The notes beneath the pieces were generated by a model, which did not search any database, was not told where the DNA came from, and saw nothing but the letters and a program-made list of their open reading frames with translations. A stretch of DNA of 38,375 bases from Deltaproteobacteria bacterium (GTDB lineage Bacteria; Myxococcota_A; Polyangia; Polyangiales; Houyiibacteriaceae): assembly GCA_013151775.1 (NCBI GenBank), contig JAADHO010000335.1:1-38375 (forward strand), written 5' to 3'. Every line of letters starts with the position of its first letter. Positions within the stretch are counted from its first letter, which is position 1. The translations under genes and the position numbers were made by a program. Shown here one piece after another: positions 2,976 through 25,750 of the stretch.

Positions 2976-3066
2976 GCCGCAAGCATAGCGTCGATTCGCC
3001 CAGACCCCAACATCGCCGAGGCGCCGAGCGACACGTCCACCTCGAAGGGATTCGGTGGGGGACCAC

Positions 3067-3132
3067 GGTTACCGCTCGGTAACGGCTCGACGGGTGAGGG
3101 AGCATCGCCCCGTAACGTTCCAGGTCGGGGAC
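3067..3132 (+). promoter_or_regulatory. Predicted activator-binding region (UAS) of the electron-transfer operon
   Basis: A perfect inverted repeat GTTACCG-CT-CGGTAAC lies at 3068-3083. Starting 33 bp after its first base is AGCATCGCCCCGTAAC (3101-3116), and abutting this a weaker element GTTCCAGGTCGGGGAC (3117-3132). The first two elements recur with almost the same spacing upstream of the cytochrome-porin gene (20432-20480). They end 41 bp upstream of a sigma-54 -24/-12 element, the usual arrangement for an NtrC-family activator, and such an activator is encoded at 17578-18951. Binding by that protein is inference. Confidence 0.65.
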
Positions 3133-3156
3133 GGCAGATTTTGGCCGTTCAGCGCA

Positions 3157-3172
3157 TGGCACGACGCTTGCG
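3157..3172 (+). promoter_or_regulatory. Sigma-54 (-24/-12) promoter of the electron-transfer operon
   Basis: TGGCACG-ACGC-TTGCG matches the sigma-54 consensus TGGCACG-N4-TTGCW at every conserved position, including the invariant GG and GC pair with correct spacing. It lies about 146 nt upstream of the ATG at 3319, giving an untranslated leader of roughly 135 nt. Confidence 0.8.
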
Positions 3173-3318
3173 TTGTACGGGGGCAAGTCGCAGCGCGCAT
3201 GACTCGTGGGTCGAATCCACCCGCTACGAGCCGTCCGCAACGCACACCGAGCGCCGACGCCTTCGGTGGACAGCCCGCAGCCCGCCATCACGGCGGCAGC
3301 ACCCAAGGAGAAACAGCC

Positions 3319-3915: not shown

Positions 3916-3965
3916 TGATATCGACACACCCTGCATCACTACTCACCACCGGAAATGTGGTGCCT

Positions 3966-4466
3966 ATGTTTTCTAAACTCGTAAGCGGCGTTCTGCTGCT
4001 AACGTGTGTGGCGGCTTGCGACTCCACAAGTCAAGAACCAGTGGACACGCAAGATCCAGACGCGTCCATCCCGTTCGACCACACGATACACGCCGGCACC
4101 TACGAAATGCCCTGCCTTTCGTGCCACGTCTTCGCAGACAAATCGCCAGTCGCTGGCGTACCATCGCTGCGTCGATGCATGGGTTGCCATCGGTTCGTCG
4201 CTAGCGATCAGCCCGATATTCAGAGGATGGCTCAAATGTATCAGGACCAGCGAGCTCCGTCCTGGACTCGCGTATATGATCTACCTGACCACGTCTACTT
4301 CTCACATCGCATGCATGTACGTGCAGACGTGCAATGCTCCGAGTGCCACGGCGATGTAGCAAGTATGGAGCACGTGGTACGCGTCAATACACTGAATATG
4401 GGATGGTGCATGACATGCCACCGAGAACGATCCGCCTCCATTGAGTGCGTCACGTGCCACAAATGA
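3966..4466 (+). CDS. actA: Pentaheme cytochrome c lipoprotein, ActA-like subunit of alternative complex III
   Basis: 166 residues from the ATG at 3966, which gives a clean lipoprotein signal (VAAC, Cys18); an in-frame ATG at 3915 would add 17 residues without a signal. Five CxxCH motifs are present (CLSCH, CMGCH, CSECH, CMTCH, CVTCH), and extra His residues such as FDHTIH and FSHRMH can act as distal ligands. ActA of alternative complex III is also a small pentaheme periplasmic subunit, and the next gene is ActB-like. The protein is expected to carry electrons from the membrane complex to a periplasmic acceptor. The gap to actB is 9 bp. GC is visibly lower here than in the flanking genes. Confidence 0.85.
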   Translation: MFSKLVSGVLLLTCVAACDSTSQEPVDTQDPDASIPFDHTIHAGTYEMPCLSCHVFADKSPVAGVPSLRRCMGCHRFVASDQPDIQRMAQMYQDQRAPSWTRVYDLPDHVYFSHRMHVRADVQCSECHGDVASMEHVVRVNTLNMGWCMTCHRERSASIECVTCHK

Positions 4467-4475
4467 GAACGTTGC

Positions 4476-7313
4476 ATGATTATCAAAGATAACATCACTC
4501 GCCGTAACTTCATCGCGACAACTTCCGTGGCTGCCGCTGGAGCCGCCACTCTCACAGGCTGTCGCGAGCGAGCCATTCGACACATCGTGCCGTGGGTAAA
4601 CCCTCCGGACGATGCTATTCCTGGCATCCCACTCTTCTACAACACGATTTGTCGCGAGTGCACCGCCGGATGCGGCATGAGCGCGCGCACACGTGAAGGA
4701 CGCGTGGTGAAGCTGGAGGGAAACCCCGAGCATCCGATCGGCCGCGGCGCCCTCTGCGTCCGAGGCCAGGCCGCCATCGAGGGCCTCTACCACCCCGAGC
4801 GCCTAGGCGGCCCAATGCTGCGCGCGCAAGACGGATCGGAGCAGAGCAGCGTGACCTGGGACGCGGCCGAGGCCGCCCTGGGTGACGCTCTGAGCCGCGC
4901 CATCGACCACGACGCACCGATCTATGTGCTCACGCGCCCGGAGCCCGGCGCTTTGGGCGGACTCTTCGGCGCCTGGCTGACTGCCCTCGGGCAACAGCCT
5001 GACCAACAAATCAGCTTCGACCCCCTCGAGCCAACTTGGACGCGTGAAGCGGGCCAGCGAACCTTCGCCGCGTCCGATCGGCCGAACTACAGGCTGGGTC
5101 GAGCACGCATGCTGCTGTCGATCGGCGCGGACTTCCTGGAAGACTGGGGCTCGCCGGTAGAGCATGCCCGCGGCTTGGCCGACATGCAGGCTGGCCGCCG
5201 CGAGGGCGAGACGCGCTTCGTCTATGTAGGCCCACGGCTCTCGCTCACCGCTGCCGCCGCAGATCGTTGGCTGTCCGTGCGGCCCGGCTCCGAGATCCAC
5301 CTGGTCCTCGGACTGGCGCGCTACGTGCTCGAGCAAGGTGGGGCTGGGGTGTCGTCGCTGCCTGGGCCTGCCGCGGCCAGCTTGGCGCGGAAGCTCGCTG
5401 GCTACACGCCCCAAGGCACAGCCGAACGAACCGGTCTCGACGCCAGCGACATCACGTCTCTCGGGCGTCAGTTGGTGCGAGCACGGCCCAGCCTAGTCCT
5501 CGGACCGGGGCGTTCCGTCGCCGGCAGCAACGCGGTCGCGCTGGCCTCCGCGGTCCATGTTCTCAACGCACTGACAGGCGCCATCGGCGACACCGTACGA
5601 TGGCCCCAACGCGTCGAAGAGACGCAGCAGGGCGCGGAGAGCGAGTTGACTCACCTGGTCGAGCGCGCGCGACGCGGACGGATCGGTGTTCTCGTGGTCC
5701 ACCACACGGACCCCTTGCGCTTCGGCGCGGCCTTCGATCAGTTCGAGCGCGCCCTGGAACAGGTCGACTTCCTAGCCGTCATCGGCCATCGCCTCGACGG
5801 CCTCGCTCGACGCGCGAACGTCGTGTTGCCCGACCACCACTTCCTAGAGAGTTGGTCTACGCTGGAGACGCGTCCAGGGGTGATGGGCATCCAGCAGCCG
5901 ACCATGACGCCCCTGCTCGAGACCAAGGCGGCCGCCGACGTACTGATCGCCGCCGCCCGATCCATCGAGCGCGCCGACGGACTGCCCTACGGCACCTTCG
6001 CCGAGTCGATCCACGACGAGCATGACCCACAGGATCTACAACGTGGAGGCGTGTTCGAACAGGCGCCCCTACGGGTGGTGTCTCTCACGGACGACCCCCT
6101 GCCAATGCCACTCGAGGACGCGAGCCTCGAGGGCCCGGATGACGGTCTCGCGCTCAGCGTGTTCCCATCTCTTCGCCAGACAGGCGACGGGCGTCCAGCG
6201 GACGACCTTCTGAGCGAGATCCCGGATCCGCTGACGCTGATCTCGTGGAGCGGCTGGGTGGAGCTTCATCCCGCAACGGCCGCGACCCTTGGGCTAGCGA
6301 CACGGGACGTGGTGCGCGTGGACGCCGGGCAACGACAGCTGGAATTGCCGGTCTACGTGCATCCCGGAGTCCGCGAGGGCATCGCGGGCATCCCCGCGCC
6401 CTTCGCCACCGATCTACTCACCAGTGGAGCCCAACCGGCCTTGGGCCTGGTGTCCCGAGTGAGCCTCTCCAAGACCGGCGCCGTCGCGCTGCTTCCTCGC
6501 AGCCAGACCACGGAGAATCAGGCCGGCCGAGAGCTCGCCATGACCACACGAGAGCTGACTGCCAGAGGGCGCCACGTGAGACGCCTGAGCATGTATCCCA
6601 CGCCTGAGCGCGGCGCTCACCGCTGGGGCCTGGTAGTCGACCTCGATCGCTGCAACGGCTGCTCGAGCTGCGTCGCGGCCTGCTACGTGGAGAACAACAG
6701 CGCGATCGTCGGACCCGAGGAGACCGCCAACCGCCGAACCATGAACTGGATGCGCATCGAGCGATTCATGGAGGGCTCGCCCGAACACCCGGATGCACGC
6801 TTCATGCCGGCCATGTGCCAGCAGTGCACGAACGCACCGTGTGAATCGGTCTGTCCTGTCTACGCCACGTACCACACCTCCGACGGCATCAACGGTGAGA
6901 TATATAATCGATGTGTTGGCACTCGCTACTGCGAGAACAATTGCCCGTATCAAGCGCGTCGTTTCAATTGGTATGATCGACCACGTTCGGAGCGCGCACG
7001 GCTTGCACTCAACCCTGATGTTACTGTGCGCGAACGCGGCGTGACCGAGAAGTGCACTTTCTGTATCCAACGCATTCGTGCGGGCAAGGAGCAGGCAAAG
7101 ATTGATGGCAAGCCCATCCTCGACGGCGACATCACGCCGGCATGTGCGCAGACATGCCCAACAGGTGCGCTGGTATTTGGCGACCTACAAGACCCGGCTT
7201 CCCGCGTATCACGTCTGGCCGCCGGAGACCGCGCATATCATCTATTCGAAGAACTCAACACAATTCCCGGTGTCGTCTATCTGGCACGACGGCGAGTGGA
7301 GATCGAGCGATGA
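4476..7313 (+). CDS. actB: ActB-like fused molybdopterin-oxidoreductase-fold / Fe-S subunit of alternative complex III
   Basis: 945 residues. The N-terminus has a Tat-type motif (TRRNF, Arg9-Arg10), a hydrophobic stretch and a lipobox-like LTGC (Cys29). Residues ~50-690 are a molybdopterin-oxidoreductase-like domain and ~705-930 a four-cluster ferredoxin domain (CNGCSSCVAAC; CQQCTNAPCESVCP; CVGTRYCENNCP; CTFC with CAQTC). This fusion is the hallmark of ActB, which in characterised complexes has no molybdenum. Unusually, the N-terminal domain keeps a full Cys59-x2-Cys62-x3-Cys66-x27-Cys94 set able to hold another Fe-S cluster. The stop codon overlaps the start of actC (ATGA). GC drops after about 6890. 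Confidence 0.9.
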   Translation: MIIKDNITRRNFIATTSVAAAGAATLTGCRERAIRHIVPWVNPPDDAIPGIPLFYNTICRECTAGCGMSARTREGRVVKLEGNPEHPIGRGALCVRGQAAIEGLYHPERLGGPMLRAQDGSEQSSVTWDAAEAALGDALSRAIDHDAPIYVLTRPEPGALGGLFGAWLTALGQQPDQQISFDPLEPTWTREAGQRTFAASDRPNYRLGRARMLLSIGADFLEDWGSPVEHARGLADMQAGRREGETRFVYVGPRLSLTAAAADRWLSVRPGSEIHLVLGLARYVLEQGGAGVSSLPGPAAASLARKLAGYTPQGTAERTGLDASDITSLGRQLVRARPSLVLGPGRSVAGSNAVALASAVHVLNALTGAIGDTVRWPQRVEETQQGAESELTHLVERARRGRIGVLVVHHTDPLRFGAAFDQFERALEQVDFLAVIGHRLDGLARRANVVLPDHHFLESWSTLETRPGVMGIQQPTMTPLLETKAAADVLIAAARSIERADGLPYGTFAESIHDEHDPQDLQRGGVFEQAPLRVVSLTDDPLPMPLEDASLEGPDDGLALSVFPSLRQTGDGRPADDLLSEIPDPLTLISWSGWVELHPATAATLGLATRDVVRVDAGQRQLELPVYVHPGVREGIAGIPAPFATDLLTSGAQPALGLVSRVSLSKTGAVALLPRSQTTENQAGRELAMTTRELTARGRHVRRLSMYPTPERGAHRWGLVVDLDRCNGCSSCVAACYVENNSAIVGPEETANRRTMNWMRIERFMEGSPEHPDARFMPAMCQQCTNAPCESVCPVYATYHTSDGINGEIYNRCVGTRYCENNCPYQARRFNWYDRPRSERARLALNPDVTVRERGVTEKCTFCIQRIRAGKEQAKIDGKPILDGDITPACAQTCPTGALVFGDLQDPASRVSRLAAGDRAYHLFEELNTIPGVVYLARRRVEIER

Positions 7314-8668
7314 CCACTGCAACTCTTTCGGATACGATCGGCGCAGATATGGAGGCGACCATAGCGCGAACGACATGGCGCTACTGGCTCGCATTGCTCT
7401 TCGCCGCCGGAATGACCGCACTCGGTATCTGGGCGTGGGTGCAGATCCTACAAGATGGCTTCGGTCTCACGGGACTCAACACCCCTGTCATGTGGGGCTC
7501 ATTCATTACGAACTTCGTATTTTTCATCGGAGTGAGTCACGCAGGAACGCTCGTGTCGGCGATTCTGTATTTCACAAAGTCGCCGATACGCGCGGGTGTA
7601 GGCCGCTCGGCAGAGGCGATGACTGTCATCGCGATTATGACAGCTGGTCTATTTCCCATCATTCACTTGGGGCGTGCCTGGTTGGGTTTTTGGCTGATGC
7701 CCTACCCGAACCAGCGGCAGCTCTGGCCAAACTTTCACTCTCCGCTCATCTGGGACGTATTTGCCATAAGTTCGTACGTTACGATCAGCGCGCTCTTCCT
7801 CTACATGGGCATGCTTCCCGACCTGTCCTCCCTCAGTCGCCGCGTGCGCGGAGTACGCAAATATGTGTACCGCGTATTGTCACTCGGATTCTCTGAATCC
7901 GATGGCGAGTGGGCACTATTCGAGCGCGCATATCCCATCTTTGCACTCGTGGTCATCCCCCTCGCCGTCTCTGTTCACAGCGTCGTCTCATGGGATTTCG
8001 CGATGGCTTTGACACCGGGATGGCACTCGACGATCTTCGCGCCCTACTTCGTCGCTGGAGCGATCTTCTCTGGTGTCGCGATGGCCATCATACTGCTATC
8101 GCTCCTGCGACGCGGATATAAGCTTCAGGCCTATATTCAAGAGAAGCATTTTGACGCGCTAGCGAAGCTGATGCTCTCCATGTCGCTGATCATGACCTTC
8201 GTCTATTGCACGGAGATCTTCATGGCCTTCTATCACGGAGAATCAGTAGAAATAGATCTGTACATATGGCGCATGACAGGCCCTTCTGCACCACTGTTCT
8301 GGAGCGTAATCTTCTGCAACTCCGTTGTTCCTCTGGCATGTTTCTGGCGCAAGATACGGTTCGATTTGCGTGCCTTGATCGCGATCTCTGTGCTGGTGAC
8401 CATCGGCATGTGGTTGGAACGCTATATGATCGTCGTAACTAGCCTCTCACATGGCGCAGATCCAGCGACCTGGGGAAGTTACTTCCCATCGTTCCACGAG
8501 ATCCTCATCACGGTGGGTGCCTGCGGTTGGTTCGCACTGTGGTTCATGGTCTTTGTGAAGTTTTTTCCATGTATTTCTATATCTGAGACAAAGCAAGCGC
8601 AGGTGGCGTTCTCCACCGTGCCTTCTGCTGGTACTGAAGATTCATCTGAGGAGCCGCACGATGCCTGA
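7310..8668 (+). CDS. actC: NrfD/PsrC-like quinone-binding membrane subunit, ActC-like
   Basis: 452 residues from the ATG at 7310, which overlaps the actB stop; an upstream in-frame extension lies inside actB and is rejected. About ten hydrophobic helices are visible, with motifs of the NrfD/PsrC family (FFIGVSHAGTLVSAILYF, HLGRAWLGFWLMPYPNQR, WPNFHSPLIWD, SVHSVVSWDFAM, FAPYFVAGAIFSG). ActC is the integral membrane subunit that binds quinol next to the ActB clusters. The last ~25 residues are polar. Its end overlaps actD by 8 bp. The gene has markedly lower GC and AT-richer codons than actD-actF. Confidence 0.9.
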   Translation: MTTATLSDTIGADMEATIARTTWRYWLALLFAAGMTALGIWAWVQILQDGFGLTGLNTPVMWGSFITNFVFFIGVSHAGTLVSAILYFTKSPIRAGVGRSAEAMTVIAIMTAGLFPIIHLGRAWLGFWLMPYPNQRQLWPNFHSPLIWDVFAISSYVTISALFLYMGMLPDLSSLSRRVRGVRKYVYRVLSLGFSESDGEWALFERAYPIFALVVIPLAVSVHSVVSWDFAMALTPGWHSTIFAPYFVAGAIFSGVAMAIILLSLLRRGYKLQAYIQEKHFDALAKLMLSMSLIMTFVYCTEIFMAFYHGESVEIDLYIWRMTGPSAPLFWSVIFCNSVVPLACFWRKIRFDLRALIAISVLVTIGMWLERYMIVVTSLSHGADPATWGSYFPSFHEILITVGACGWFALWFMVFVKFFPCISISETKQAQVAFSTVPSAGTEDSSEEPHDA

Positions 8669-9164
8669 GCCTTCCATGATTCTATTCGACGATCCACATC
8701 ATGCGGAGGACGTGGTCCGGCGACTGCGCGAGTGCGGGGTGGATGATGTTCATGTGACGAGCCCCGCCGCATATCCAGTGACGGAAGAGACGAAGCCGCC
8801 CTTCGGATGGCGCCTCTTCGGGTTGTTGGCGCTCACAGGCGGACTGACAGGGCTCGCCACGGCTATTGCGCTCGTGGTCCACGGCTCCGAGACCGTGCCG
8901 TTGATCGTGGGCGGCAAGGCCGTGTTGGCATGGCCCGCGTTTTCGGTCGTGATGTTCGAGCTCACCATGCTTGGCGCCGGTGTCGCGAATTTCCTCGGCG
9001 TCATCGTGCTGTCCGCCGTCGCTCGACGAGGCCTTCCGAAGCGCGCTCGCATGGCGGCCGCCGAGGGGCATATCGCGGTGCTGATCCCTGCGGGAGAGCA
9101 CTCGGCCGAGCAGCGTGAGGAGATCCGGCGGGTGCTCGAGGACGAGCATGGGGTGGCCGCGTGA
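8661..9164 (+). CDS. actD: ActD-like membrane subunit (DUF3341)
   Basis: 167 residues. The N-terminal ~50 residues form a small alpha/beta domain (LFDDPHHAEDVVRRLRECGV; MTSPAAYPV-like segment), followed by two transmembrane helices at ~52-75 and ~88-118 and a soluble C-terminal domain ending near VLEDEHGVAA. This is the layout of DUF3341/ActD, a structural subunit of alternative complex III without cofactors. It overlaps actC by 8 bp and its TGA overlaps the GTG start of actE, indicating translational coupling. Confidence 0.88.
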   Translation: MPEPSMILFDDPHHAEDVVRRLRECGVDDVHVTSPAAYPVTEETKPPFGWRLFGLLALTGGLTGLATAIALVVHGSETVPLIVGGKAVLAWPAFSVVMFELTMLGAGVANFLGVIVLSAVARRGLPKRARMAAAEGHIAVLIPAGEHSAEQREEIRRVLEDEHGVAA

Positions 9165-9790
9165 CCGGGCGTAGTTGGCTGGTGGTCGCTGCGTGTCTGG
9201 TCCTGACTGGTGCGTGCGACGCCTCTTGGCCTGCGAGTATGGCTGATCAGCCTTCGGTGGGTCCTCTCGACGCTCCCCGTCCGCCACCTTTCGGTTCGGT
9301 AGCTGTCGGAGTGGACGTGGTGGAGACACGTGAAGACGTGGAGGACATGCTGAGTCCCGTAGCGAACGATGGACACTCGGCCGAACGGGGCGCTGCGCTC
9401 TTCGGGATTCACTGCGTGGCATGTCACGGCAGCGACGGACGCGGCGGCGGCAAGGTCTCGGAAAAGATGCCTCCCGCTCCTGACCTGCGACACATCTCGA
9501 TCTGCCGTCGAACGGACGGCTTCATCTATGGCACGATCACGGCGGGTGGCCGGGCCATGCCGTCCCTGCGTGAGGGGCTCAGCACGCGAGATCGCTGGGA
9601 TCTCGTCTCCTTCGTGCGCGAGCTGCAGAGCGCTGGTTGTGAGGGCAGCGCCGCGGGAATGGGGAGTGCCACGGAGCCCGATGGCGCTGGCACAGACACG
9701 GGCGAGGCTGATGGCACCGGGCCAGACACGGCGGGGTCCGAAGCCGGCACGGTGGCGCCTGACGCCGCGACTACTGGAGATGCACAATGA
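9161..9790 (+). CDS. actE: Monoheme cytochrome c lipoprotein, ActE-like
   Basis: 209 residues, GTG start overlapping the actD stop (GTGA). A signal peptide with lipoprotein-like LTGAC (Cys19) is followed by one class I cytochrome c domain: heme motif CVACH near residue 86, GSDGRGGG, and a distal Met in RAMPSLREGLS. ActE in characterised alternative complex III is also a monoheme lipid-anchored cytochrome. The final ~45 residues are an acidic Gly/Thr/Asp/Ala linker, an extension I do not know from ActE and likely disordered. The TGA overlaps the actF start (ATGA). Confidence 0.88.
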   Translation: MTGRSWLVVAACLVLTGACDASWPASMADQPSVGPLDAPRPPPFGSVAVGVDVVETREDVEDMLSPVANDGHSAERGAALFGIHCVACHGSDGRGGGKVSEKMPPAPDLRHISICRRTDGFIYGTITAGGRAMPSLREGLSTRDRWDLVSFVRELQSAGCEGSAAGMGSATEPDGAGTDTGEADGTGPDTAGSEAGTVAPDAATTGDAQ

Positions 9791-10875
9791 AGGCTTGGCT
9801 CGTTCAGACCGAGGGCGTGCTCGGACGTCCCATCACCCTCAGCTGCCTCTTCGCGGTCGGCGCCGGCATCGCGGCGTTTGGCTGGGGAGCTGCCAGCGCT
9901 CGAGCACCTGGGGTGTTCGGGGCCTTGATCGCCAGCTGGCTCTTCTTCGCGGGGACCGCGATGGGTGCGGTCGCCTTTCGCGCGTTGCTCGGCGGCGTGT
10001 TGCGAGCGCGCTGGGCGAGGGAACTCGAACCGACCGCTTCGACACTCATGGCCTTCGTGCCGGTGGCCTCCTTGCTCTTGGCCGTCCCCTTGATCGGCCT
10101 GTGGATCTGGGCGCCTTGGACAGCGCATGCACCGCCTGCGAGAGCGTTCTGGCTGAACGCCCCGTTCTTCTACATCCGGGAGGTGCTCGGCACAGCGGCC
10201 CTCTTCGGAATGGCGTACTACAGCCATCGCTCTCGAGGCCGTGGCGAAGGCCGGTCCAACTCACCCATGAGCACGAGCTTCGCTGTGGGCTTCTGCCTGG
10301 TGTACGCCGTGGTGCTTTCGATCTGGTCCTTCGACTTCATCCTGGCAGCGGACACCGAGTGGGTCAGCTCCTTGATCGGACCGCACCTCTTCGTAGGCGC
10401 GTTCTCCTCTGCCGTTGCGGTCATCACCCTGTTGGCGGTCGCCCAAGGTCGCACATCGGTGTTTCAGCGAGACGCCCTCGCGAAGCTCATGTTCGCGTTG
10501 TCGGTCGTCTGGCTCTATTTCTTTTGGTCCCAGTACTTGCCCATGTGGTACGGGAACCTACCCGATGAGATCAGTTTTCTGCTAGCCCGCAGCACTGCGC
10601 CATGGAGCGAGATCTTCTTCTTCGTTCTCGCGACGGTCTTTGCGCTTCCCTTCTTCCTCTTGCTCTATCCACCGACGCGGAGTTCTTCACGTGTCCTCAT
10701 CTGGGTTGCCTGCCTGGTACTCCTTGGGACATTTGCCGAGCGCTTCTTGCTCGTCGTTCCGTCCTTACACAGCGCGGGGACTCCGGCGATCGACGCTCGA
10801 GAGCTCGTGGTCGCCATAGGCGTACTAGGCGCCTTCGTGCTGACCGTGGGTCGCTCGCAAAGAGAAGTCGTTTGA
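9787..10875 (+). CDS. actF: ActF-like integral membrane subunit
   Basis: 362 residues with about ten hydrophobic segments and no signal peptide. The pattern fits ActF, a distant NrfD-like relative of ActC (RALLGGVLRARW, WLNAPFFYIREVLGTAALFGMAYYS, IWSFDFILAADTEWVSSLIGPHLFVGAF, FWSQYLPMWYGNLPDE). FWSQYLPMWYGNLPxE is a characteristic ActF stretch. Position immediately after actE with a 4-bp overlap completes the canonical actABCDEF order. Canonical clusters often continue into a small actG and oxidase genes; here a cupredoxin gene and a Rieske/cytochrome b module follow instead. Confidence 0.88.
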   Translation: MKAWLVQTEGVLGRPITLSCLFAVGAGIAAFGWGAASARAPGVFGALIASWLFFAGTAMGAVAFRALLGGVLRARWARELEPTASTLMAFVPVASLLLAVPLIGLWIWAPWTAHAPPARAFWLNAPFFYIREVLGTAALFGMAYYSHRSRGRGEGRSNSPMSTSFAVGFCLVYAVVLSIWSFDFILAADTEWVSSLIGPHLFVGAFSSAVAVITLLAVAQGRTSVFQRDALAKLMFALSVVWLYFFWSQYLPMWYGNLPDEISFLLARSTAPWSEIFFFVLATVFALPFFLLLYPPTRSSSRVLIWVACLVLLGTFAERFLLVVPSLHSAGTPAIDARELVVAIGVLGAFVLTVGRSQREVV

Positions 10876-10930
10876 CTTCCATCATGCACCCTCCATTGCG
10901 CGAATTCTGGTCGCACCGTAGTGTGCCTAG

Positions 10931-11611
10931 ATGGGCGACGCTCGGCGAGTTCGTTGGCTAGCATTCCGCACTCCGGAGGCGACGCGCCGTCCGAGCTACA
11001 GCACGCTTGGCGCGCTACTCGTGTGGGGTGGGTGCTTGGTCGCTGCGCTCAGCGCAGGCAGTCACGGTGGGGCGCAGGCCGGCGGTACGCTCGATGGAGA
11101 CCTGCGCGTCCGGGCCCACGGTCGACTCGAACACGCGGTGGTCTACCTCGAGAGCGTACCGCCCTCTCCCTGTCGCCCAGGGCAGACGGCCGTGCTCGAT
11201 CAGCGAGGCATGAAGTTCGTGCCACCGGTACTTGCGATTGCGCGCGGGACCACCGTGTCCTTCACGAATCACGACATCGTTTCGCACAACGTGTTCAGTC
11301 CAGACGGGGAGGGCTATGAGCTCGGCACGTGGACACGCGGAACCGTGAAGCACCGCCGCTTCACTCGCTTGGGTGTGTATCGCCAACTGTGCCGCCTTCA
11401 CCCAGAGATGACCGCAGATATCGTCGTGCTACCGAGCCCATATTTCGCGGTCACTGGCCCCGATGGTCACTTTCAGATCCTCGGCGTTCCCGCCGGAACG
11501 TACAGGCTCGAGACCTGGGCGCGTGGCTACGCACCCGTGCGACGCCCGATCCACATGGCCGGGGCACAAGTCCAACACATCGCCCTCACCCTCGACCGGG
11601 AACGCCGCTGA
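10931..11611 (+). CDS. Second cupredoxin with C-terminal regulatory-like beta domain
   Basis: 226 residues, paralogue of the gene at 3319. Type 1 copper ligands are His119 (VSHNVFS), Cys154, His157 and Met160 (CRLHPEM), and the C-terminal ~60 residues repeat the beta-domain pattern (DGHFQILGVPAGTYRLETW). The N-terminus has a long charged lead (about 20 residues) before the hydrophobic signal core (LGALLVWGGCLVAAL), so the start is uncertain; no good ribosome-binding site precedes 10931. It lies 55 bp after actF and 57 bp before the flavoprotein gene, at the junction of the ACIII block and the Rieske/cytochrome b block, consistent with a carrier between the two complexes (inference). Confidence 0.83.
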   Translation: MGDARRVRWLAFRTPEATRRPSYSTLGALLVWGGCLVAALSAGSHGGAQAGGTLDGDLRVRAHGRLEHAVVYLESVPPSPCRPGQTAVLDQRGMKFVPPVLAIARGTTVSFTNHDIVSHNVFSPDGEGYELGTWTRGTVKHRRFTRLGVYRQLCRLHPEMTADIVVLPSPYFAVTGPDGHFQILGVPAGTYRLETWARGYAPVRRPIHMAGAQVQHIALTLDRERR

Positions 11612-11668
11612 CGTGCCCTCGAGCGATGCACGCGGCGCGGCGCTCCGACGAGTTCGGTCACACGGCCG

Positions 11669-13522
11669 ATGAGAAACACGGCAACCTGGTGGAGAGGGAA
11701 ATCCCTGGCGCAGGCCGAACATCTGCGCTCGGGCGTCCCCTGTCGAGCGGCGTGCCCGGTGGATACGAACGCCGGGGCCTATGTCGGGTTGACCGCACAC
11801 GGACGCTATGAAGAGGCCTACGCGCTGTTGCGCCGGAGAAACCCCTTCGCGTCGGTCTGTGGTCGCGTATGCGCGGCCCCGTGCGAGACCGTCTGCCGCC
11901 GCGCCGTGGTCGACGCTCCGATCAAGATTCGCGCGATCAAGCGCTTCGTGAACCAGCGGGTGGGCATCGAGAGCGGCCGCTCCTTCGAGCGCATCTCGGA
12001 GATCGTCGAGCGCCCGCGGCCCCGCGCCACCGATGCGGGCTCGGTCGCCATCGTCGGAGCCGGCCCCGCGGGCCTCGCCTGTGCGCACGACCTGGCCTTG
12101 ATGGGTCACGAGGTGACCGTGTTCGACGCCGCGCCCGTCGCCGGCGGGATGATGCGACTCGGGATCCCCGAACACCGCTTGCCACGGGCTGTCCTGCAGG
12201 CCGAGATCGAGTTCATCGAATTCCTCGGCGTGGAGATCCGACTTGGCGCCGAGATCGGACGCAACGTGCTCTTCGAGCAGCTCGCTCAGGACTACGGCGC
12301 GGTGTTCGTCGCGGTGGGCTGCCGCAAGGACGCGCAGCTCGGGATCCCCGGCGCAGAGCTCGACGGAGTGCTGACGGCGGTGAATTTCCTGGCGCATATC
12401 AACATCGGGATCCCCATGGAGGTCGGGGAGCGTGTGGTGGTGATCGGCGCAGGCAACGTGGCGTACGACGTGGCGCGCACAGCACAGCGCTTCGGCGCCG
12501 TCGCCCCGCTCGAACGCGAGCGCCACCTGCTCGCCCTCGAGGCGGCGTTCGTCGCCGCCCGTGTACTCGGCCGAAAGGTGACCATCGTGACGCTGGAGTC
12601 GCGCGCCGAAATGCCAGCCGACCCTAGCCAGATCGAGGAGGGCATTCGTGAGGGCATCCTGCTCGCCAACCGCCGCGCGCCGAAGGCAATCCTATCGGAT
12701 CGAGGTCACGTTCGCGGCCTGCAGACACTCACCGTCCGGCGTCTCTTCGACGCCCAGCATCGATTCGCGCCGGAGCTCGTGGAGGGAAGTGAAGAAGAAT
12801 TCCCGTGTGACACGGTCATCACCGCCATCGGCCAGATCGCGGACCTCTCATTCCTCGGCCCAGACCATGGTCTCGCGGTCACGCCCGAGAGCACCATCCG
12901 CGTCGACTCACAGACCTTGGCTACGAGTCGCACCGGAGTGTTCGCTGGCGGCGACGTGGCCTTCGGACCCCGAATCGTCATCGAGGCCGTCGCCGACGGA
13001 CGACGCGCCGCACTGTCCATCGACACGCTGCTCACCGGCCGCGCCGACGAGCCCTCTGCGACTTGTTACCGAACCTTTTCTACCTTCGGCTACGAACACC
13101 CCTTCGCGTTGGGTGACTACGAGAAAGTCCCTCCGCGACGCGTGCCCTTGATCCCGATCGAGAACCGCACTCTCCGAGCCGAAGTGGAGTCGGACCTCGA
13201 CGAAGCGGACGCACGCGCGGAGGGCAGCAGGTGTCTGCACTGCTGGGTCGAGCCCGTGTTCCATGTGGGTCAGCCCAGTGGCAGCGAGTGCATCACCTGT
13301 GGTGGCTGCGCCGACGTTTGCCCACAAGACTGCCTGAGTCTCGTCTCCCGCCCGAGCAGCGACGGCAGCGGCACACCCGCGGTGGTGGTGCTCCTAGACG
13401 ACTCCACCTGCATCCGCTGCGGCTTGTGCGCACGCCGCTGCCCAACCGCGGTGATCACGATGCGGGCTTCCTATGAGCAGGGTGAGGTGGATCTAGTTAG
13501 AATGGCCGACCAAGTCTTTTGA
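11669..13522 (+). CDS. GltD-like FAD/NAD(P)-dependent oxidoreductase with C-terminal 2[4Fe-4S] domain
   Basis: 617 residues, predicted soluble and cytoplasmic (no signal, no membrane helix). Order: N-terminal Fe-S domain as in GltD/dihydropyrimidine dehydrogenase (Cys25, Cys29, Cys64, Cys68, Cys72, Cys76; the first two Cys of the usual eight are absent); FAD dinucleotide fold ([14 protein letters not shown], ~residue 127); second GxGN motif for NAD(P) ([17 protein letters not shown]) followed by an unusual ~25-residue insertion and LESR where GltD has YRRS; FAD-contacting [12 protein letters not shown]; then [12 protein letters not shown] and [12 protein letters not shown], two [4Fe-4S] sites. 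The gene ends 10 bp before the Rieske gene. It may connect the Rieske/cytochrome b complex to NAD(P)H; not a glutamate synthase because no large subunit gene is nearby. Confidence 0.85.
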
Positions 13523-13532
13523 GGAGTCTCCT

Positions 13533-14021
13533 ATGGCGCTGATTGACGATCTCGATGTGCCCATGACCGAAGCCGAGCTCGAGCGGCGCCGGTTTCTGGG
13601 CTTGCTAGGCTCCGGCGCCTTGGGACTCGCGGGCATCGGGACCATGGTCGCCGGCGTGGGTTACCTCGAGCCGAACGCACCCTACGAGCAAGCGACCCGC
13701 TTCGTCGTCGGCCGCCCCGAGGCGATCGTTCCCGGTGGGGTGCTGACCTTGAGGGAACAACGCGTCTACGTCGTACGGGGACAAGCTGGCGTCTATGCGC
13801 TGAGCTCCGTTTGCACACACCTCGGCTGCGTCACGCGGCACGGACTCGGTCAGTCTGAAATCGTGTGCCCCTGCCATGGCAGCGCCTTCGACATGGAAGG
13901 TCGGGTCCTCAGCGGTCCCGCACGCAAGCGACTTCCGCGTCTCGAGCTCACGCTCGAACGAGGCGAAATCGTCGTTCACACAACGTCCCAAGTCGACGAT
14001 GACACTCTGCTCGAGGTCTGA
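13533..14021 (+). CDS. Rieske [2Fe-2S] protein of a cytochrome b complex
   Basis: 162 residues. The N-terminus has a Tat-like ERRRFLG followed by one hydrophobic segment ([23 protein letters not shown]), an uncleaved signal-anchor as in bc-type Rieske proteins. The cluster motifs are Cys94-T-His96-L-G-Cys99 and Cys112-P-Cys114-His115-G-S: Cys94/His96/Cys112/His115 ligate the cluster and Cys99-Cys114 form the disulfide that marks high-potential Rieske proteins. GAGGAG lies 6 nt before the ATG and overlaps the stop of the flavoprotein gene. The protein takes electrons from quinol at the Qo site of the cytochrome b encoded next. Confidence 0.92.
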
Positions 14022-14023
14022 CG

Positions 14024-14842
14024 TTGCGCAAGATAGCCACCGCTCTGACACGCAGCCGGGTATGGCGCTCGGTATTTCGCCATGGGTTTCCAGATTCCAA
14101 TCGGAACCGCTCGCTAGCTATTTTCTCCAGCTTTTTTCTGCATTTCCATCCGGTAAAAGTTCGGGTTCGAGCGATAGCATTCACACGCACATTCTATCTC
14201 GGCGGACTCGCTCTGGCATGCTTTTTCATCCTGACGGTTACCGGAACATTTCTCATGTTCTACTACCACCCTATCGTACCGAGCGCGTACAATGACATGA
14301 AGGATCTTCAATTTGTCGTGTCCTACGGAATGTTTTTACGTAATCTGCACCGGTGGACATCGCGTACAATGATCGCCCTCGTGTTCGTGCATATGGCGTG
14401 GACATTCATGCGTGGCGCATACAGGCACCCACGTGAATTCAACTGGACAATTGGAGTCGGCCTTCTTGTAATAACAGTGCTACTATCATATACAGGCACT
14501 CTTCTTCCGTGGGATCAGCTGTCGTACTGGGCGGTCGCTGTTGGCACCAACATTGTTGGAGCCATCCCGATTATTGGGGCTAAGGTAAAACTCCTACTGC
14601 TCGGAGGTCATGAGATAAACGACAACGCTCTCCTACGTTTCTATGTTCTTCACTGCGTGGTGCTACCTTTGACTCTTGCCTTTGGTGTCGGACTGCACCT
14701 GTGGCGTGTTCGCAAGGACGGCGGAATCCATCTGCCCGAGCTGCCCCCAAGACGCGATGACGTAGGTGACGAGAACTACGCCTCGACGCGCGCCGATGCG
14801 GGTTCGCCAGAATCTTCCGATGCCCCGCATGAAAACGCATGA
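14024..14842 (+). CDS. petB: Cytochrome b6-type subunit
   Basis: 272 residues with a TTG start 2 bp after the Rieske stop. Four core helices carry the heme ligands: His109 and His123 in helix B (LHRW...FVH) and His210 and His225 in helix D. The helix D ligands are separated by 14 residues, as in b6-type proteins, against 13 in mitochondrial-type bc1. [11 protein letters not shown]-like [16 protein letters not shown] and [16 protein letters not shown] match the b6 Qo loop. The Cys that binds heme cn in b6f (YCLGG) is Tyr58 here (FYLGG), so a covalent third heme is unlikely. A ~45-residue basic N-terminus and a polar tail are extra. GC is the lowest of the operon (about 45% in places). Confidence 0.9.
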
Positions 14843-15582
14843 GCGATGCCATGAGCGAACCCACGCCAGAATCTGCGCCGGAGCGAGGGGAAGAAGAGTC
14901 TCTCGGCAGCGTCGGCGCTGCACGAGTGGTAGTCGAAGAGCATGTGTCAGACTGCAGGACATCTGACTTCGTAGACGAGCCGATGCTGATGACGTTTCCG
15001 CACTTGTTGGTGCGAGAGTGCGTCGCGTTTCTTGGCCTGTCGATATTCTTAGTGGTGATGTCACTGTGTTTCGACGCACCACTCGAATCTATCGCCGATC
15101 CGACACGAACGCCAAACCCTGCAAAGGCACCTTGGTACTTTCTTGGGATGCAGGAACTCCTTCAGTATTACCCGCCAATCGTAGCGGGCGTTCTGTTTCC
15201 AGCATTGCTGATCATCGCGCTCGCCATCATCCCGTACTTCCGGGTGAACATCGAGCGGCCACCTCTTTGGAAGTCTGCACCTTGGACTCAGGTCGCCTCG
15301 CTCTGGGGCGTGGTTGCAGGACTCAGCGGCGTTTTCTACTTTACTGGTTCTGTCCCAATTTGGTCTCTCATGGTCCCGTTGTGGGCGGTGGGCCTAGCTA
15401 TGACCGCGGGCGCTCTACCTTGGCGCCGCTCGAGGCTTGGGATCTGGTTGCAAACGCGAAGCCTGGCCTTCTGGATCTTCGCGTGGTTTCTCTTGGCCGC
15501 CACGACGCTGACTGTGATTGGGCTCTGGTTCCGAGGTCCTGGCTGGCGCTTCACACTTCCCTGGTACGATGGATTCTACTGA
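14839..15582 (+). CDS. petD: Cytochrome b subunit IV-type protein
   Basis: 247 residues, overlapping the cytochrome b6-type gene by 4 bp (ATGA). After a polar ~50-residue N-terminus there are five hydrophobic segments (~59-80, 113-133, 150-170, 174-193, 205-226), more than the three of plastid subunit IV. The [17 protein letters not shown] stretch is the Qo motif; the usual PEWY reads APWY (residues 97-100), so the proton-accepting Glu is missing at that place. Together with the preceding gene it makes a split cytochrome b. The C-terminus overlaps the start of the octaheme cytochrome gene by 14 bp. Confidence 0.88.
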
Positions 15583-17551
15583 GAAAGATCTGCCGGGCCG
15601 CGCAGAGCGTGCGGCCAGCGTCAGCATGCTGCGCTTGCTGGTGGTGTTCGCGCTACTCTCGGTCGTCCTGTTCGGCGTGCTGGCGGTTGGCCCCACACGT
15701 CAGTTCTCGGAGTGGCGCACGGTTCAGCAGCGCTACAACCGGCTGGCGAACAGGGCAGGTCTAGCGCCCATCGATGTGCGAATCCGGCAGATCGTGAACC
15801 CCTCCCTCGGCGTGGTGGACCGCTGCGGAAGCTGCCACCTCGGTGCATCGGGGGTAGCGCCGATGGCAAACGATCCATTGTTCCGCGCCCATCCACCCAT
15901 GCCGCACGAGCCTGGGGAGATGGGCTGCACCATCTGCCATGGGGGACAGGGTCGCGCGACCACGGCTCAGGCAGCACATGGCGACGTGCCCCATTGGGAT
16001 GAGCCGCTGATTCCGCGCCGATACATCGAAGCGGGGTGTGGCGTGTGCCATTCCGGGGTGCGCACACCCAACAGCGCCCTGGTCGATCGCGGCCGTGTGC
16101 TCTTCGAGGAGAGCGGCTGTGGAGCCTGCCATCCGCTGAACGCGACTGCTGGAGGGACAGAGCCAGACGTCGACCTCTCGCATGTGAGCTTGAGCGGCTT
16201 CGATCCGCATTGGGCCGATCGACACGAGGAGACTGCGGCGACCTCTGAGGATGCTCGCTGGTTGACGAGCACGCTGCCGACCACCGCCACGCAGCGCCAC
16301 GCCCTCGACGCCTACCTGAATTCCCTGATCGGCGCGCCGCGTCTGATGGCGGGCAAGTTGCTCGCCCATGGACTCGGCTGCTTGGGTTGCCACCGCATCA
16401 ACGGGTTTGGGGGGGACGACGGCCCCGATCTCTCGAACATCGCGGGGCGGCCGGCGACGGATCTCGACTTTTCGGGGGTGGACGGAGAGCACTCGCTGGC
16501 CGGCTGGCTTCGCGCGCTGCTGAAGGATCCTGACCACGTACAGGCCGACAGCAGGATGCCCAACCTCAATCTCGGCGACGGGCAGATCGAGTTGCTCATC
16601 ACCTACTTGCTCTCGCTGCGTACACGAGAGTTGCCCGCGAGCTATTGGCCGCACGACCGGTCACGCGTGGCGGGGCTCGGGACGCGAGAGTTTTCGGTCG
16701 AAGGAGAGCCCCTCTTCGATACGTTTTGCAGGGGATGTCATGGCGCCCGCGGCGAGGGCCGAGTGCTCGGCACGAGTCACGGGCTGATCGTGCCCGCGAT
16801 CGGTGGGGCGACGTTCCTGGCTTTCGCAGACGACGCGTTTCTACGACGTACAGTGACGGAAGGCCGGCCTCAGCATCGCATGCCGGCCTGGGGCACCTTC
16901 GAGGGCGGCCTGACGAAGAACGAGATCCGCTCCATCGTCGGCTATCTCCGCAGCCTCGAGCCGCAGCCACCTAGCCTGGGCGAGGTCATGGAGAGCGAGG
17001 TCGACTCGACCCTTGGGCGAACTGTCTACGGCGACTCATGCGCGCCATGTCACGGCGGGCGAGGCGAGGGCACGATGATCGGACCGCCGCTGGCGGCGCG
17101 CGACAACCCAGTCAGCGGACGCGCAGAGGACGTGTACTCCACACTCGTCCAGGGCATCGAGGGCACGGCCATGGGCTCCTTTCGGAGTCTAGACGCGCGC
17201 ACGATGCGTGCGGTGATCAGCGCGATCGGCGAGCTCGCCCCGGTCGACGTGAGCCGAGCGGATTGGAGCGCCACTGCGGGAGATGAGGAGCGCGGCCGCC
17301 GGCTCTTCGCGCGAGCGTGCAAGCGCTGTCACGGCGCGCAGGCGTCGGATTCGCGGGGCAGGGCAATGGCCATCGAGAGCCCTCGCTTCACCGCCGCAGC
17401 CTCCGAGGGATTCCTGAGCGCCTGCATCGTCCGGCGTCACGACTCCGTGCGGCCGGCGCTCCATCCGAGCGCCGAGCAGGTGGCCGATCTCGTGGCGTAT
17501 CTGCACGGCCGCGCTGCCGACGCCACCTCCAGCGCGAGCCAGACGCTCTAG
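15569..17551 (+). CDS. Membrane-anchored octaheme cytochrome c
   Basis: 660 residues from the ATG at 15569, 14 bp inside the subunit IV gene; an in-frame start at 15518 would add 17 residues but lies deeper in that gene. One N-terminal membrane helix (MLRLLVVFALLSVVLFGVL) anchors a periplasmic part with eight CxxCH motifs: CGSCH, CTICH, CGVCH, CGACH, CLGCH, CRGCH, CAPCH, CKRCH. The first three are close together with intervening His, resembling a multiheme c7/NapC-like segment; the last five look like successive class I cytochrome c domains (for example CRGCHGARGEG with Met in HRMPAWG). It is the last gene of the operon and the probable electron-accepting subunit of the Rieske/cytochrome b complex, replacing cytochrome c1 or f. 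Confidence 0.88.
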   Translation: MDSTEKDLPGRAERAASVSMLRLLVVFALLSVVLFGVLAVGPTRQFSEWRTVQQRYNRLANRAGLAPIDVRIRQIVNPSLGVVDRCGSCHLGASGVAPMANDPLFRAHPPMPHEPGEMGCTICHGGQGRATTAQAAHGDVPHWDEPLIPRRYIEAGCGVCHSGVRTPNSALVDRGRVLFEESGCGACHPLNATAGGTEPDVDLSHVSLSGFDPHWADRHEETAATSEDARWLTSTLPTTATQRHALDAYLNSLIGAPRLMAGKLLAHGLGCLGCHRINGFGGDDGPDLSNIAGRPATDLDFSGVDGEHSLAGWLRALLKDPDHVQADSRMPNLNLGDGQIELLITYLLSLRTRELPASYWPHDRSRVAGLGTREFSVEGEPLFDTFCRGCHGARGEGRVLGTSHGLIVPAIGGATFLAFADDAFLRRTVTEGRPQHRMPAWGTFEGGLTKNEIRSIVGYLRSLEPQPPSLGEVMESEVDSTLGRTVYGDSCAPCHGGRGEGTMIGPPLAARDNPVSGRAEDVYSTLVQGIEGTAMGSFRSLDARTMRAVISAIGELAPVDVSRADWSATAGDEERGRRLFARACKRCHGAQASDSRGRAMAIESPRFTAAASEGFLSACIVRRHDSVRPALHPSAEQVADLVAYLHGRAADATSSASQTL

Positions 17552-17577: not shown

Positions 17578-18951
17578 TCAGGACTCGATGTCAGCGGCGG
17601 AGACCCCGTGCTGGCGAAGTTTCTCCCACAGGTTTTTGCGCGAAATGCCCAAGAGCTCCGCAGCCTGGGCGCGTTTCCCCTTGGCCGCTTCGAGCGTGCG
17701 CAGCAGATACTCACGCTCGAACTCCTTCATCGCGACCGAGAGCGGACGCACGCTCTGCTCGCTCGTCGGTTCCAAGGTGCCGCCGCAGATGTCGGGGGGA
17801 AGATCCTGCAGCCGCAGCTCTCGCCCGCGACAGAAGACCAGAGCGTGCTCGATGGCGTGCATGAATTCCCGGACGTTCCCTGGGAAGTCATGCCGTTCGA
17901 GGGCCGCGCGCACCGCGGGGGAGACCGAGGGCGGATCACCGGGACCGTTGTAGAAGCGCCGAAGAAAGTGCTCCGCGAGCATGGGAATGTCTCCGCGCCT
18001 CTCCCGCAGCGGCGGAATCCGGATCTCGAGCACGTTGATGCGGTAGTAGAGATCCTCCCGAAAGCGTCCCTCCGCGACCTCGGTCTTCAGGTTGCGGTTG
18101 GTCGTGGAGATCAGGCGCACATCGACCTGTGTAGACGTGTTTGATCCGATGGGCTCGAAGGTCCCCTCTTGAAGAACACGCAGCAGCTTCGCTTGGGCAG
18201 GCAGTGGCAGCTCGCCGACTTCGTCGAAGAGCAGCGTCCCTCCGTCGGCGAGCTTGAACCTGCCGTCTCGCCTGCCGAGGGCGCCGGTGAAGGCCCCCCG
18301 CTCGTGACCGAAGAGCTCGGCCTCGATCAGCGCCTCCGGAAACGCGGCGCAGTTCACCGCCACGAACGCCTTGTCTCGCCGTGGGCTCCTGTCATGGATC
18401 GCCCTGGCGACCAGCTCCTTGCCCGTACCGCTCTCGGCCGAGATCAACACGGAGGCGGAGCTGTCAGCGATGGCGTCGATGCGCTCTTGCAGTCTCAACA
18501 TCGCTGGAGTGTGTCCCACCAGCAGCGCGCCCGACCCCTTGGAGGCGAGGGCCGCCAGCGCGGCGTCGAGGTCGCGGCGCAGATCGCGGCGCTCGGTGAT
18601 GCGCTCCACGGCCATCACGATCTCCTGAACCTCGAAGGGCTTGGTGATGTAGTCGTAGGCACCCTCCTTGATGACAGCGACGGCGTCCGAGAAGGAGCCG
18701 AAGCCCGTGATCAACACGACCTCCGTCTTCGGAGTCCGCTCTCGGATTCGCCGGAACACGCTCAGGCCGTCGAGGGATGGCAGCCGAATGTCGCAGATGA
18801 CGAGATCCAGCACGCGGCTCTCCGCCACCGCTAGCGCCTCGGCCCCGTCGCTGACCGCGATCACCTTGTGCCCACGCGCCCGCAGCGCGTCGCTCACCGC
18901 CATGCGGATCAGTGGTTCATCGTCCGCCAACAGAATACTAAGCATGGGCAT
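17578..18951 (-). CDS. NtrC-family sigma-54-dependent response regulator
   Basis: 457 residues. Receiver domain at ~4-118 with phospho-acceptor Asp54 (VICDIRLPS), Thr81 (LITGFGS) and Lys104 (TKPF). AAA+ domain at ~140-375 with Walker A ESGTGKE (173-179), the sigma-54 contact loop GAFTGA (219-224) and Walker [10 protein letters not shown] Fis-type helix-turn-helix lies at ~415-450 ([23 protein letters not shown]). It is convergent with the electron-transfer operon (26 bp gap) and overlaps the kinase gene upstream by 14 bp, so the two form a cognate pair. Sigma-54 promoters with shared upstream repeats precede both flanking transcription units, making these its likely targets. Confidence 0.93.
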
Positions 18952-20245
18952 GACCTCCAGCGGCCGGCAGCCACAGGGTCACGGTGGTGCCACGTCCGAG
19001 TTCGCTCTCGATGGAGAGTTCTCCTCCGAACGAGTGCATCACGCCATAGCTGATGGCGAGCCCGAGGCCCGTGCCTTCGCCGTGGCGCTTCGTCGTGAAG
19101 AAGGGGTCACGCACCTTCGCCAGGTTCTCCTTCGAGATTCCGGGACCGCGATCTGCGATCGCGATGCCCCACATGGAAGCGCGGCGAGTCGCAGACACGG
19201 ACACCTCGGATCCCCCCGGACTGAAGTAGATGGCGTTCATCACAACGTTGATCAGGGCTTTCTTGAGCTGGGTCGTCTCTGCACGGATTTGCACATCGCC
19301 GACCTCGAGTGACGACACCACCTTGACGTCGGCTTCTTCGCAGAATGGCACCACGCTGCGCAAGCACGCCGACACGAGTTCGGCCGCGTCGATGTCCGTG
19401 GGCACAGCTGACCTGCGACGAGAGTAGTCCCGCAAGCCCTCGAGGATACCCGTCATTCGAGCGCAGGCCTCTAGGATGGAGGAGAGGTATTTTTCTCGTC
19501 GCTCCTCCGGCATGTGTTCTTCACGCAGCGCTCTGGCGCACTGCATGATCCCGGAGAGGGGATTGTTGATCTCGTGCGCGATGCCGGCGGCGAGCACCCC
19601 GGTCGCAGCGTGCTTCTCGAGTTCGATCAGATCGGTCTGCTCTTCGACCAGCCTCTGGTGCGTCAGGGCCATCTCATCGTGGGCGGCCCGCAGGCGACGG
19701 CCGGGACGGGTGGCGAGGTCGAAGAGGACGCCCACCACCGGCCCGTGCAAGACGACAGCAGCGACCACGAAGACCGCAGACCACGGCTGCACCGGCAGGG
19801 GTCCGAGCAGCGCCAAGCTAGCGATCAATCCGAGATTGACCAGCGCCGTCAGGAGCCCCCCGCGCAGTCCGAAATAGGAGGCCACCAGAGCGCTCCACAG
19901 ATACAATGCGGGCACGAAGGGGCTCGAGATTCCGCCCGATACGTACACGAGCGCCGTCACGAACACGATGTCCGAGAGGGAGGCGACGAAGTAGAACGTG
20001 CGCTTCTCCTCGGTGCGCAGGATCCTCCCCCCGGCCAAGTACAAGATGACGCAATAGGGAGCGAAGACCCCGAAGGCCTCCAACACGGCGTGGCGCGTTC
20101 CGCCCGGCTCGAGCGTCAACAGCGCCCACGCAGCGCCTCCGGCGATAGCCATCGTGCGCACCAGCAGGTAGATCAAATCGCGTACGTCGAAGCCGTGGGG
20201 TAGGTCATCGCTCGCGCCTGAACGCTGAATCTCCGAAGGCTCCAT
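18938..20245 (-). CDS. Membrane histidine kinase, partner of the NtrC-type regulator
   Basis: 435 residues. About six hydrophobic segments between ~22 and 178 form the sensor region, with only short loops outside the membrane, so the signal is probably sensed in the membrane (for example quinone state or membrane energisation; inference). A coiled stretch (~182-212) leads to the HisKA domain with His224 (AAGIAHEINNPLSG) and an HATPase domain with VVMNAIYFSP (N box), DRGPGIS (G1), FFTTK and GTGLGLA (G2). No PAS or heme-binding domain is seen. It overlaps the regulator gene by 14 bp. The 447-bp region before its start is shared with the cytochrome-porin gene. Confidence 0.9.
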   Translation of the reverse strand: MEPSEIQRSGASDDLPHGFDVRDLIYLLVRTMAIAGGAAWALLTLEPGGTRHAVLEAFGVFAPYCVILYLAGGRILRTEEKRTFYFVASLSDIVFVTALVYVSGGISSPFVPALYLWSALVASYFGLRGGLLTALVNLGLIASLALLGPLPVQPWSAVFVVAAVVLHGPVVGVLFDLATRPGRRLRAAHDEMALTHQRLVEEQTDLIELEKHAATGVLAAGIAHEINNPLSGIMQCARALREEHMPEERREKYLSSILEACARMTGILEGLRDYSRRRSAVPTDIDAAELVSACLRSVVPFCEEADVKVVSSLEVGDVQIRAETTQLKKALINVVMNAIYFSPGGSEVSVSATRRASMWGIAIADRGPGISKENLAKVRDPFFTTKRHGEGTGLGLAISYGVMHSFGGELSIESELGRGTTVTLWLPAAGGHAHA

Positions 20246-20593: not shown

Positions 20594-20603
20594 AGCTGCG
20601 CGT

Positions 20604-20619
20604 TGGCGCGCCAGTTGCA
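20604..20619 (+). promoter_or_regulatory. Sigma-54 (-24/-12) promoter of the cytochrome-porin gene
   Basis: TGGCGCG-CCAG-TTGCA matches the sigma-54 consensus with only A to G inside the -24 element. It is about 74 nt upstream of the ATG at 20693, and the predicted activator sites lie 100 bp or more further upstream, as expected for NtrC-type activation by looping. Confidence 0.68.
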
Positions 20620-20692
20620 ACCAGCTCACCCGCATTCCCTGAGATCCAAGTCGAACGCAAGCGCTGCCCCTACGTTGGGCAGGAGGAAAATG

Positions 20693-25696: not shown

Positions 25697-25750
25697 GTTG
25701 ACGCGCGCCCCGGGGCGCCACTCGGGCGCCGTCCCGGGTATGATTCGAGC

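Follow-up and report, generated by a model that had tools for sequence, protein, structure and literature searches.

The flavoprotein encoded at positions 11669-13522 of the analysed window, a stretch of 38,375 nucleotides from a Deltaproteobacteria bacterium, belongs to a gene cassette with a Rieske protein and a split cytochrome b, and this cassette is seen in many bacteria other than anammox, including cultured Geothrix. The cassette is, on sequence evidence, homologous to the Kuenenia loci Kustd1480-1485 and Kuste4569-4574, for which NAD(P) reduction by quinol bifurcation was proposed (Hauser 2025, PMC12954380, where the same proposal is credited to Kartal 2013). With the balance tipping slightly in its favour, we take the flavoprotein to be a cytoplasmic subunit that reacts with NAD(H), part of a complex that would split quinol oxidation between a periplasmic chain and NAD+. 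The invariance of a histidine in cytochrome b (His40), the loss of the haem cN cysteine, a glutamate in the nucleotide pocket (Glu310), the serine of the Rieske protein and the cupredoxin, Cyc2-like and ACIII neighbours are new here.

The flavoprotein and its gene neighbourhood

The open reading frame starts with ATG on the forward strand and encodes an NAD(P)-binding Fe-S flavoprotein of 617 aa. Its Pfam domains, Fer4_20 (residues 24-96, 6e-15), Pyr_redox_2 (125-444, 6e-29) and Fer4_7 (541-594, 5e-9), and its two C-terminal [4Fe-4S] motifs (C541xxCxxCxxxCP and C581xxCxxCxxxCP) bear out a sequence-only reading that had described FAD and NAD(P) folds, an N-terminal Fe-S domain and two [4Fe-4S] sites at the C-terminus. 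Seventeen cysteines are kept in the alignment of the window protein with 85 relatives, the exceptions being C25 and C29, where two rows have gaps, and C64, replaced by Leu in one. The top NCBIfam model is PRK12771, 'NAD(P)-binding protein', at 451 bits and thus below its cut-off of 516 bits. An AlphaFold2 model from six sequences was poor (pLDDT 51.8), and the model from 61 sequences was used (pLDDT 86.4, pTM 0.88). Searched against PDB folds, it retrieved 9bov (3.6e-47, TMq 0.69), 8oh5 (5.8e-46) and 9n5u (1.2e-45), placing NfnABC/StnABC nearest, NfnL next, and GltD and dihydropyrimidine dehydrogenase further away; a PDB sequence search concurs (9bov 2e-96 versus 3e-48 for GltD 2vdc). NfnABC is described as a near fold of the Kuenenia flavoprotein as well (Hauser 2025, PMC12954380).

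These bifurcating transhydrogenases (9bov, 9n5u, 8oh5) have in common with the window protein the FAD/NAD(P) fold, the N-terminal Fe-S domain and an RCLxC motif, but the genes adjoining the window flavoprotein encode a membrane cytochrome b and a Rieske protein, and none of the annotated window genes encodes a NuoF-like or ferredoxin-like partner of the NfnABC/StnABC type. GltD also combines Fer4_20 with the FAD/NAD(P) fold; the window protein differs from it in lacking the first two cysteines of the GltD N-terminal motif and in carrying the additional C-terminal dicluster. Identity with GltD was rejected, there being no gltB neighbour and both NCBIfam models scoring under their cut-offs (gltA 268 against 471.75 bits, gltD 215 against 482.95 bits).

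The gene lies in a collinear run on the forward strand, 3055-17551, in which all gaps are shorter than 60 nt. The run, which the sequence-only reading had missed, opens with an alternative complex III (ACIII) gene set: a cupredoxin with a carboxypeptidase-regulatory-like domain and a CxxHPxM motif (3055-3915; Pfam Copper-bind 4e-6 and sequence), an ActA/QrcA-like pentahaem cytochrome c (3915-4466; NCBIfam QrcA 1.7e-22, below cut-off, with five CxxCH counted by eye), an ActB-like protein with molybdopterin-oxidoreductase-like and Fe-S parts (4476-7313; QrcC 1e-67 and QrcB 3e-59, below their cut-offs), an ActC-like protein of the NrfD family (7310-8668; PF03916 1e-28), ActD (8661-9164; PF11821 3e-22), an ActE-like monohaem cytochrome c (9161-9790; PF13442 1e-10) and an ActF-like protein, again of the NrfD family (9787-10875; PF03916 1e-8). 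ACIII is a separate quinol:cytochrome c enzyme, and the ActABCDEF-like set stands directly 5' of the cassette. Such pairing is rare: across 86 loci, ActB and ActC both exceed 50 bits only in L076, L038 has a weaker ActB-like match nearby, and a set collinear with the cassette, as at 3055-10875 of the window, occurs in at most two others.

A second cupredoxin gene (10931-11611, motif CRLHPEM) immediately precedes the flavoprotein. The Rieske gene begins 11 nt beyond the flavoprotein, as the sequence-only reading had it when placing the one directly before the other, and encodes a [2Fe-2S] protein with the motif CTHLGC...CPCHGSAF (13533-14021; PF00355 2e-13). It is followed by a b6-like cytochrome b (14024-14842) with haem ligands H109, H123, H210 and H225, an extra H40 and a residue other than Cys where b6 has Cys35; by a subunit-IV-like protein with the Qp motif AKAPWYF (14839-15582; PF00032 3e-4), in which four hydrophobic segments were found as against five helices, a discrepancy counted against the favoured reading; and by a membrane-anchored octahaem cytochrome c with eight CxxCH motifs (15569-17551). 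The split b6/subunit IV, the four haem-b histidines and the Rieske protein are common to cytochrome b6f. Unlike b6f, the window complex has no cytochrome f that could be found, no Cys35 and APWY in place of PEWY, and it adds the N-terminal histidine and the flavoprotein.

Beyond the run lie, on the reverse strand, genes for an NtrC-type response regulator (17578-18951) and a histidine kinase (18938-20245). NtrC-type regulators are a common kind; homologues recur beside the cassette in 21 loci, and the window has one too. A forward-strand gene at 20603-22099 encodes a putative fused monohaem cytochrome-porin that is Cyc2-like: its AIPAFARQY-GTS-CQTCH stretch, PAL and length of 498 aa agree with the strict published features (AXPXFAR[Q/K][T/Y], CXXCH, PXL, at least 365 aa; PMC8406198), and the HMM of neighbour cluster E matches it at 2e-82. 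Elsewhere in the window we note a protein with a MopE copper-binding motif (18-1568), an HMGL-like gene adjoining a class V aminotransferase gene (23879-27505) and, on the reverse strand at 30942-35247, genes for an SNF2 helicase, a DUF4276 protein and an AAA ATPase weakly similar to MADS3 of a defence system.

The cassette across bacterial phyla

An alignment of six flavoproteins was scanned against 84,980 species genomes and returned at least 532 relatives, the best 80 of which were analysed. The query is blind to neighbouring genes, but five of its six proteins came from known cassette loci or the window. Same-strand genes directly adjoining the flavoprotein include a Rieske gene in 78 of these best 80 and a cytochrome b gene in 77; L044 is at a contig edge, and L092 and L109 have neither gene. 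By their record titles, the 80 relatives span 14 named phyla, with Acidobacteriota (45) ahead of Ignavibacteriota (6), Verrucomicrobiota and Chloroflexota (4 each), Bacteroidota (3), Planctomycetota, Myxococcota and Fidelibacterota (2 each), six phyla with a single relative and six records without a phylum. A chance neighbourhood was rejected on this adjacency. Neither of the two patterns that the sequence-only reading had named as contrary to it, homologues always next to gltB or no association with Rieske genes in other genomes, was found: no cassette locus holds a GltB homologue, and the window genome has its GltD/GltB pair elsewhere (C80).

In a sample of the window's phylum, 18 of 282 genomes have a flavoprotein match at 1e-60; ten loci from this sample comprise five with the cassette, one that ends within the gene (L033) and four without the cassette. 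Another 24 more distant flavoprotein loci have no Rieske or cytochrome b gene in the available flank, mostly about 1.5 kb. Conversely, one cytochrome b of the cassette type was found without the flavoprotein: L141 (G322:C18) carries a Rieske/cytochrome b pair of the same clade, no flavoprotein in the 10.5 kb available and Ala for the Rieske Ser, a natural contrast to the other loci.

Several neighbours recur. A cupredoxin gene lies 5' of the cassette within 4.5 kb in 46 of the 74 loci with room for one, and CxxHPxM is kept in 47 of 49 cupredoxin matches. Cyc2-type monohaem porins occur in 39 of the 80 loci, in two BLAST clusters, one of 28 loci and one of 11; most carry the published motif in variant form, two are fragments without it, and the strict motif is present in 11 of 86 loci. 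In L037, from the window's phylum, cbb3-type COX1 and FixO genes (3668-6423) follow directly 3' of the cassette.

The window Rieske protein has Kuste4569 (9rk4, 3e-18) as its best PDB match, with Kustd1480 (9rk3) also among the matches, and the anammox-type gene set of NAD(P) flavoprotein, Rieske protein, b6-like cytochrome b, subunit IV and multihaem cytochrome c is present in the window. As an anammox sample we took 15 genomes with hydrazine-synthase-like matches, all of which have related flavoproteins. From eight of them, 12 stretches were inspected; 11 hold the five genes together, in two gene orders, and the twelfth (L189) has the flavoprotein alone. PF18582 proved unspecific as an anammox marker (76 of 392 genomes), and residue numbers were used to recognise Kuenenia: in one genome the cytochrome b residues fall at the exact published numbers (Kustd1481 H62, R266 and K267; Kuste4571 H43 and R247), and these loci are therefore the Kuenenia complexes or near copies. 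Both Kuenenia complexes resemble the window in the Rieske protein, the b6-like cytochrome b with its extra histidine, the AKAPWYF subunit IV, the multihaem cytochrome c and the flavoprotein; they differ in gene order and, in one of the two, in an additional octahaem cytochrome c.

In quick trees (SH-aLRT only), 52 core flavoproteins form one clade with support 100 and the anammox flavoproteins fall outside it, and core and anammox cytochromes b group together against canonical ones with support 99. A scenario in which anammox bacteria swapped the flavoprotein while retaining cytochrome b was not upheld, as AU tests reject neither a cytochrome b clade of core members alone (p 0.52) nor a joint clade of core and anammox flavoproteins (p 0.06).

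The sequence-only reading had rightly tied the flavoprotein to Rieske/cytochrome b and to anammox complexes; its interpretation was largely right but too narrow, the family reaching far beyond anammox. The literature searched, which included few subscription journals, yielded no description of the flavoprotein-Rieske cassette outside anammox.

Conserved residues and the direction of electron flow

We infer a physical complex in which quinol would be oxidised at the Qp site of the Rieske/cytochrome b part. One electron would leave by way of the Rieske protein and the octahaem cytochrome c, be taken up by a cupredoxin or cytochrome c and end at an oxidase or a different acceptor; the second would travel through haems bP and bN to an extra haem b, for which the two cytochrome b subunits would each supply His40, and then along the Fe-S chain of the flavoprotein to FAD and NAD+. 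Overall, this would amount to 2 QH2 + NAD+ + 2 oxidised carriers -> 2 Q + NADH + 2 reduced carriers. The subunit set, the haem-binding histidine, the tuned Rieske serine and the loss of haem cN all fit this course. The evidence we cite for it comprises the conserved synteny, the residue matches with Kuenenia, His40 and R590 and, further, the cbb3 genes of L037 and COX1, found in 11 of 13 genomes surveyed with the complex (12 and Kuenenia). Its weakest step is the direction of electron flow.

AlphaFold3 models place a novel interface haem b on a cytochrome b histidine in Kuenenia (Hauser 2025, PMC12954380). Window H40 aligns with this residue (Kuste4571 H43, Kustd1481 H62) and is kept in all 83 core rows and all 11 anammox rows; R230-K231 of cytochrome b is nearly invariant. 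The canonical paralogues L142-L147 offer a weak control, since they lack an 11-residue segment C-terminal to His40 and the aligner still puts a nearby histidine in the column; the contrast thus lies in the segment and not in the letter. Position 58, which alignment of PDB chains equates with the haem cN Cys of b6, is Tyr in the window; all 11 anammox rows have Cys here, none of 82 core rows does, and one further core row has a gap. The core clade's N-side quinone site therefore loses an element. Of the two flavoprotein arginines modelled near haem propionates, Kustd1483 R550 and Kuste4570 R511 (Hauser 2025, PMC12954380), the first corresponds to window R590 and is Arg in 85 of 85 rows; the column of the second is mostly Gly in core rows (77 G, 6 R, 2 A), which counts against the favoured reading.

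The potential-raising second-sphere serine of the Rieske protein is found in 82 of 83 core rows as against one of seven canonical paralogues (of the 86 loci, L044 lacks the motif and L092 and L109 the gene), and a high potential is therefore predicted, as bifurcation needs. The window motif CHGSAF pairs Ser with Phe, as in Kustd1480; the potentials of the Kuenenia Rieske proteins are given as +303 and +335 mV (PMC12954380). Wherever the motif search matched, core and anammox sequences have the Qp motif [A/S]KAPWYF, with AKAAWYF in L118 as the exception. To judge by their phyla, the hosts probably use menaquinone. At -70 mV for menaquinone and -320 mV for NAD(P) (PMC12954380), an acceptor above about +180 mV would make bifurcation thermodynamically possible with no proton gradient.

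Glu310, which closes the second strand of the NAD(P) fold, is present in 85 of 85 core rows. Anammox rows, which unlike the core keep the haem cN Cys, have Arg at this position in nine of 11, as part of an NADPH-type Arg-Arg pair, and Glu in two; the latter, L193 and L194, are two anammox-type cassettes of one genome (G621), with CLES/Glu310 instead of YRR/Arg310. By the usual rule for Rossmann folds, Glu at this place goes with NAD(H) and not NADP(H). Owing to E310, the window pocket is NADH-like, which points to a preference for NAD(H) over NADP(H). Such a pocket would fit NADH oxidation equally and thus counts against the favoured direction as well.

Flow in reverse, from NADH through FAD, the Fe-S centres and the extra haem into cytochrome b, would reduce quinone on the N side and make the complex an NADH-fed Q-cycle enzyme. 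We regard this as unlikely, with the invariant Glu310 and the host's physiology speaking for it. A NuoF match is found in all 13 surveyed genomes, above cut-off in eight, so NADH and the quinone pool can react by another route, which counts against the favoured reading, and the candidate role of a stand-in for a missing complex I was rejected. A role in autotrophy is weak, a RuBisCO match being present in one of the 13 genomes and absent from the window genome; the latter also has no NiFe-hydrogenase match (nine of the 13 genomes match, mostly in fragments), so there is no obvious need for NADH from quinol, a further point against the favoured reading. A host with complex I and COX1 and no RuBisCO match looks heterotrophic, and non-pumping NADH dehydrogenases are present in many bacteria. 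Yet an NADH-fed enzyme would be wasteful alongside complex I, the haem cN Cys is lost and the Rieske protein appears tuned high; for Kuenenia, the reverse direction is argued against by Hauser 2025 (PMC12954380).

A role mainly in extracellular electron exchange, with the Cyc2-like porin, cupredoxin and octahaem cytochrome c tying iron or electrodes outside the cell to quinone and NAD(H), seems to us improbable. The recurrence of monohaem porins and 5' cupredoxins agrees with it. Geothrix is a genus of Fe(III) reducers, and in two Geothrix genomes a search for cytochrome b at 1e-8 matches nothing but the cassette copy, which is likewise the sole match in the window genome (E 0.01). The strict Cyc2 motif, however, is confined to a small minority of loci, 41 of the 80 have no porin in their available DNA, and Cyc2 function is putative outside known iron oxidisers. 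That the flavoprotein is a soluble GltD- or NfnL-like enzyme whose gene merely rides in the operon is highly improbable: its fold is that of NfnABC, NfnL and GltD and distant paralogues without Rieske neighbours exist, but the adjacency is kept across 14 named phyla, gltB is not nearby, and the Kuenenia subunits are reported to co-migrate, as cited in PMC12954380.

Consequences for the proposed quinol-driven NAD reduction

Whether a Rieske/cytochrome b complex reduces NAD(P) has hitherto been a question tied to anammox bacteria, which are difficult to culture and manipulate. The same machine in cultured Geothrix and many Acidobacteriota makes the question testable; in the two Geothrix genomes no cytochrome b other than that of the cassette is matched. 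The haem, for which the only other evidence is an AlphaFold3 model, gains independent support at the sequence level from the invariant histidine. The clade without haem cN is a variant made by nature to which one of the objections to the mechanism no longer applies. Tentatively, the cassette may represent a widespread enzyme class that makes NADH from menaquinol without a proton gradient, sends the second electron into a cupredoxin/octahaem chain, dispenses with haem cN and lets electrons leave cytochrome b through a haem b at the dimer interface; in the window it would share one apparent operon with ACIII, beside a Cyc2-like porin. If so, the pairing with ACIII and the Cyc2-like porin would wire two quinol enzymes, NAD and electrons from outside the cell into a single circuit.
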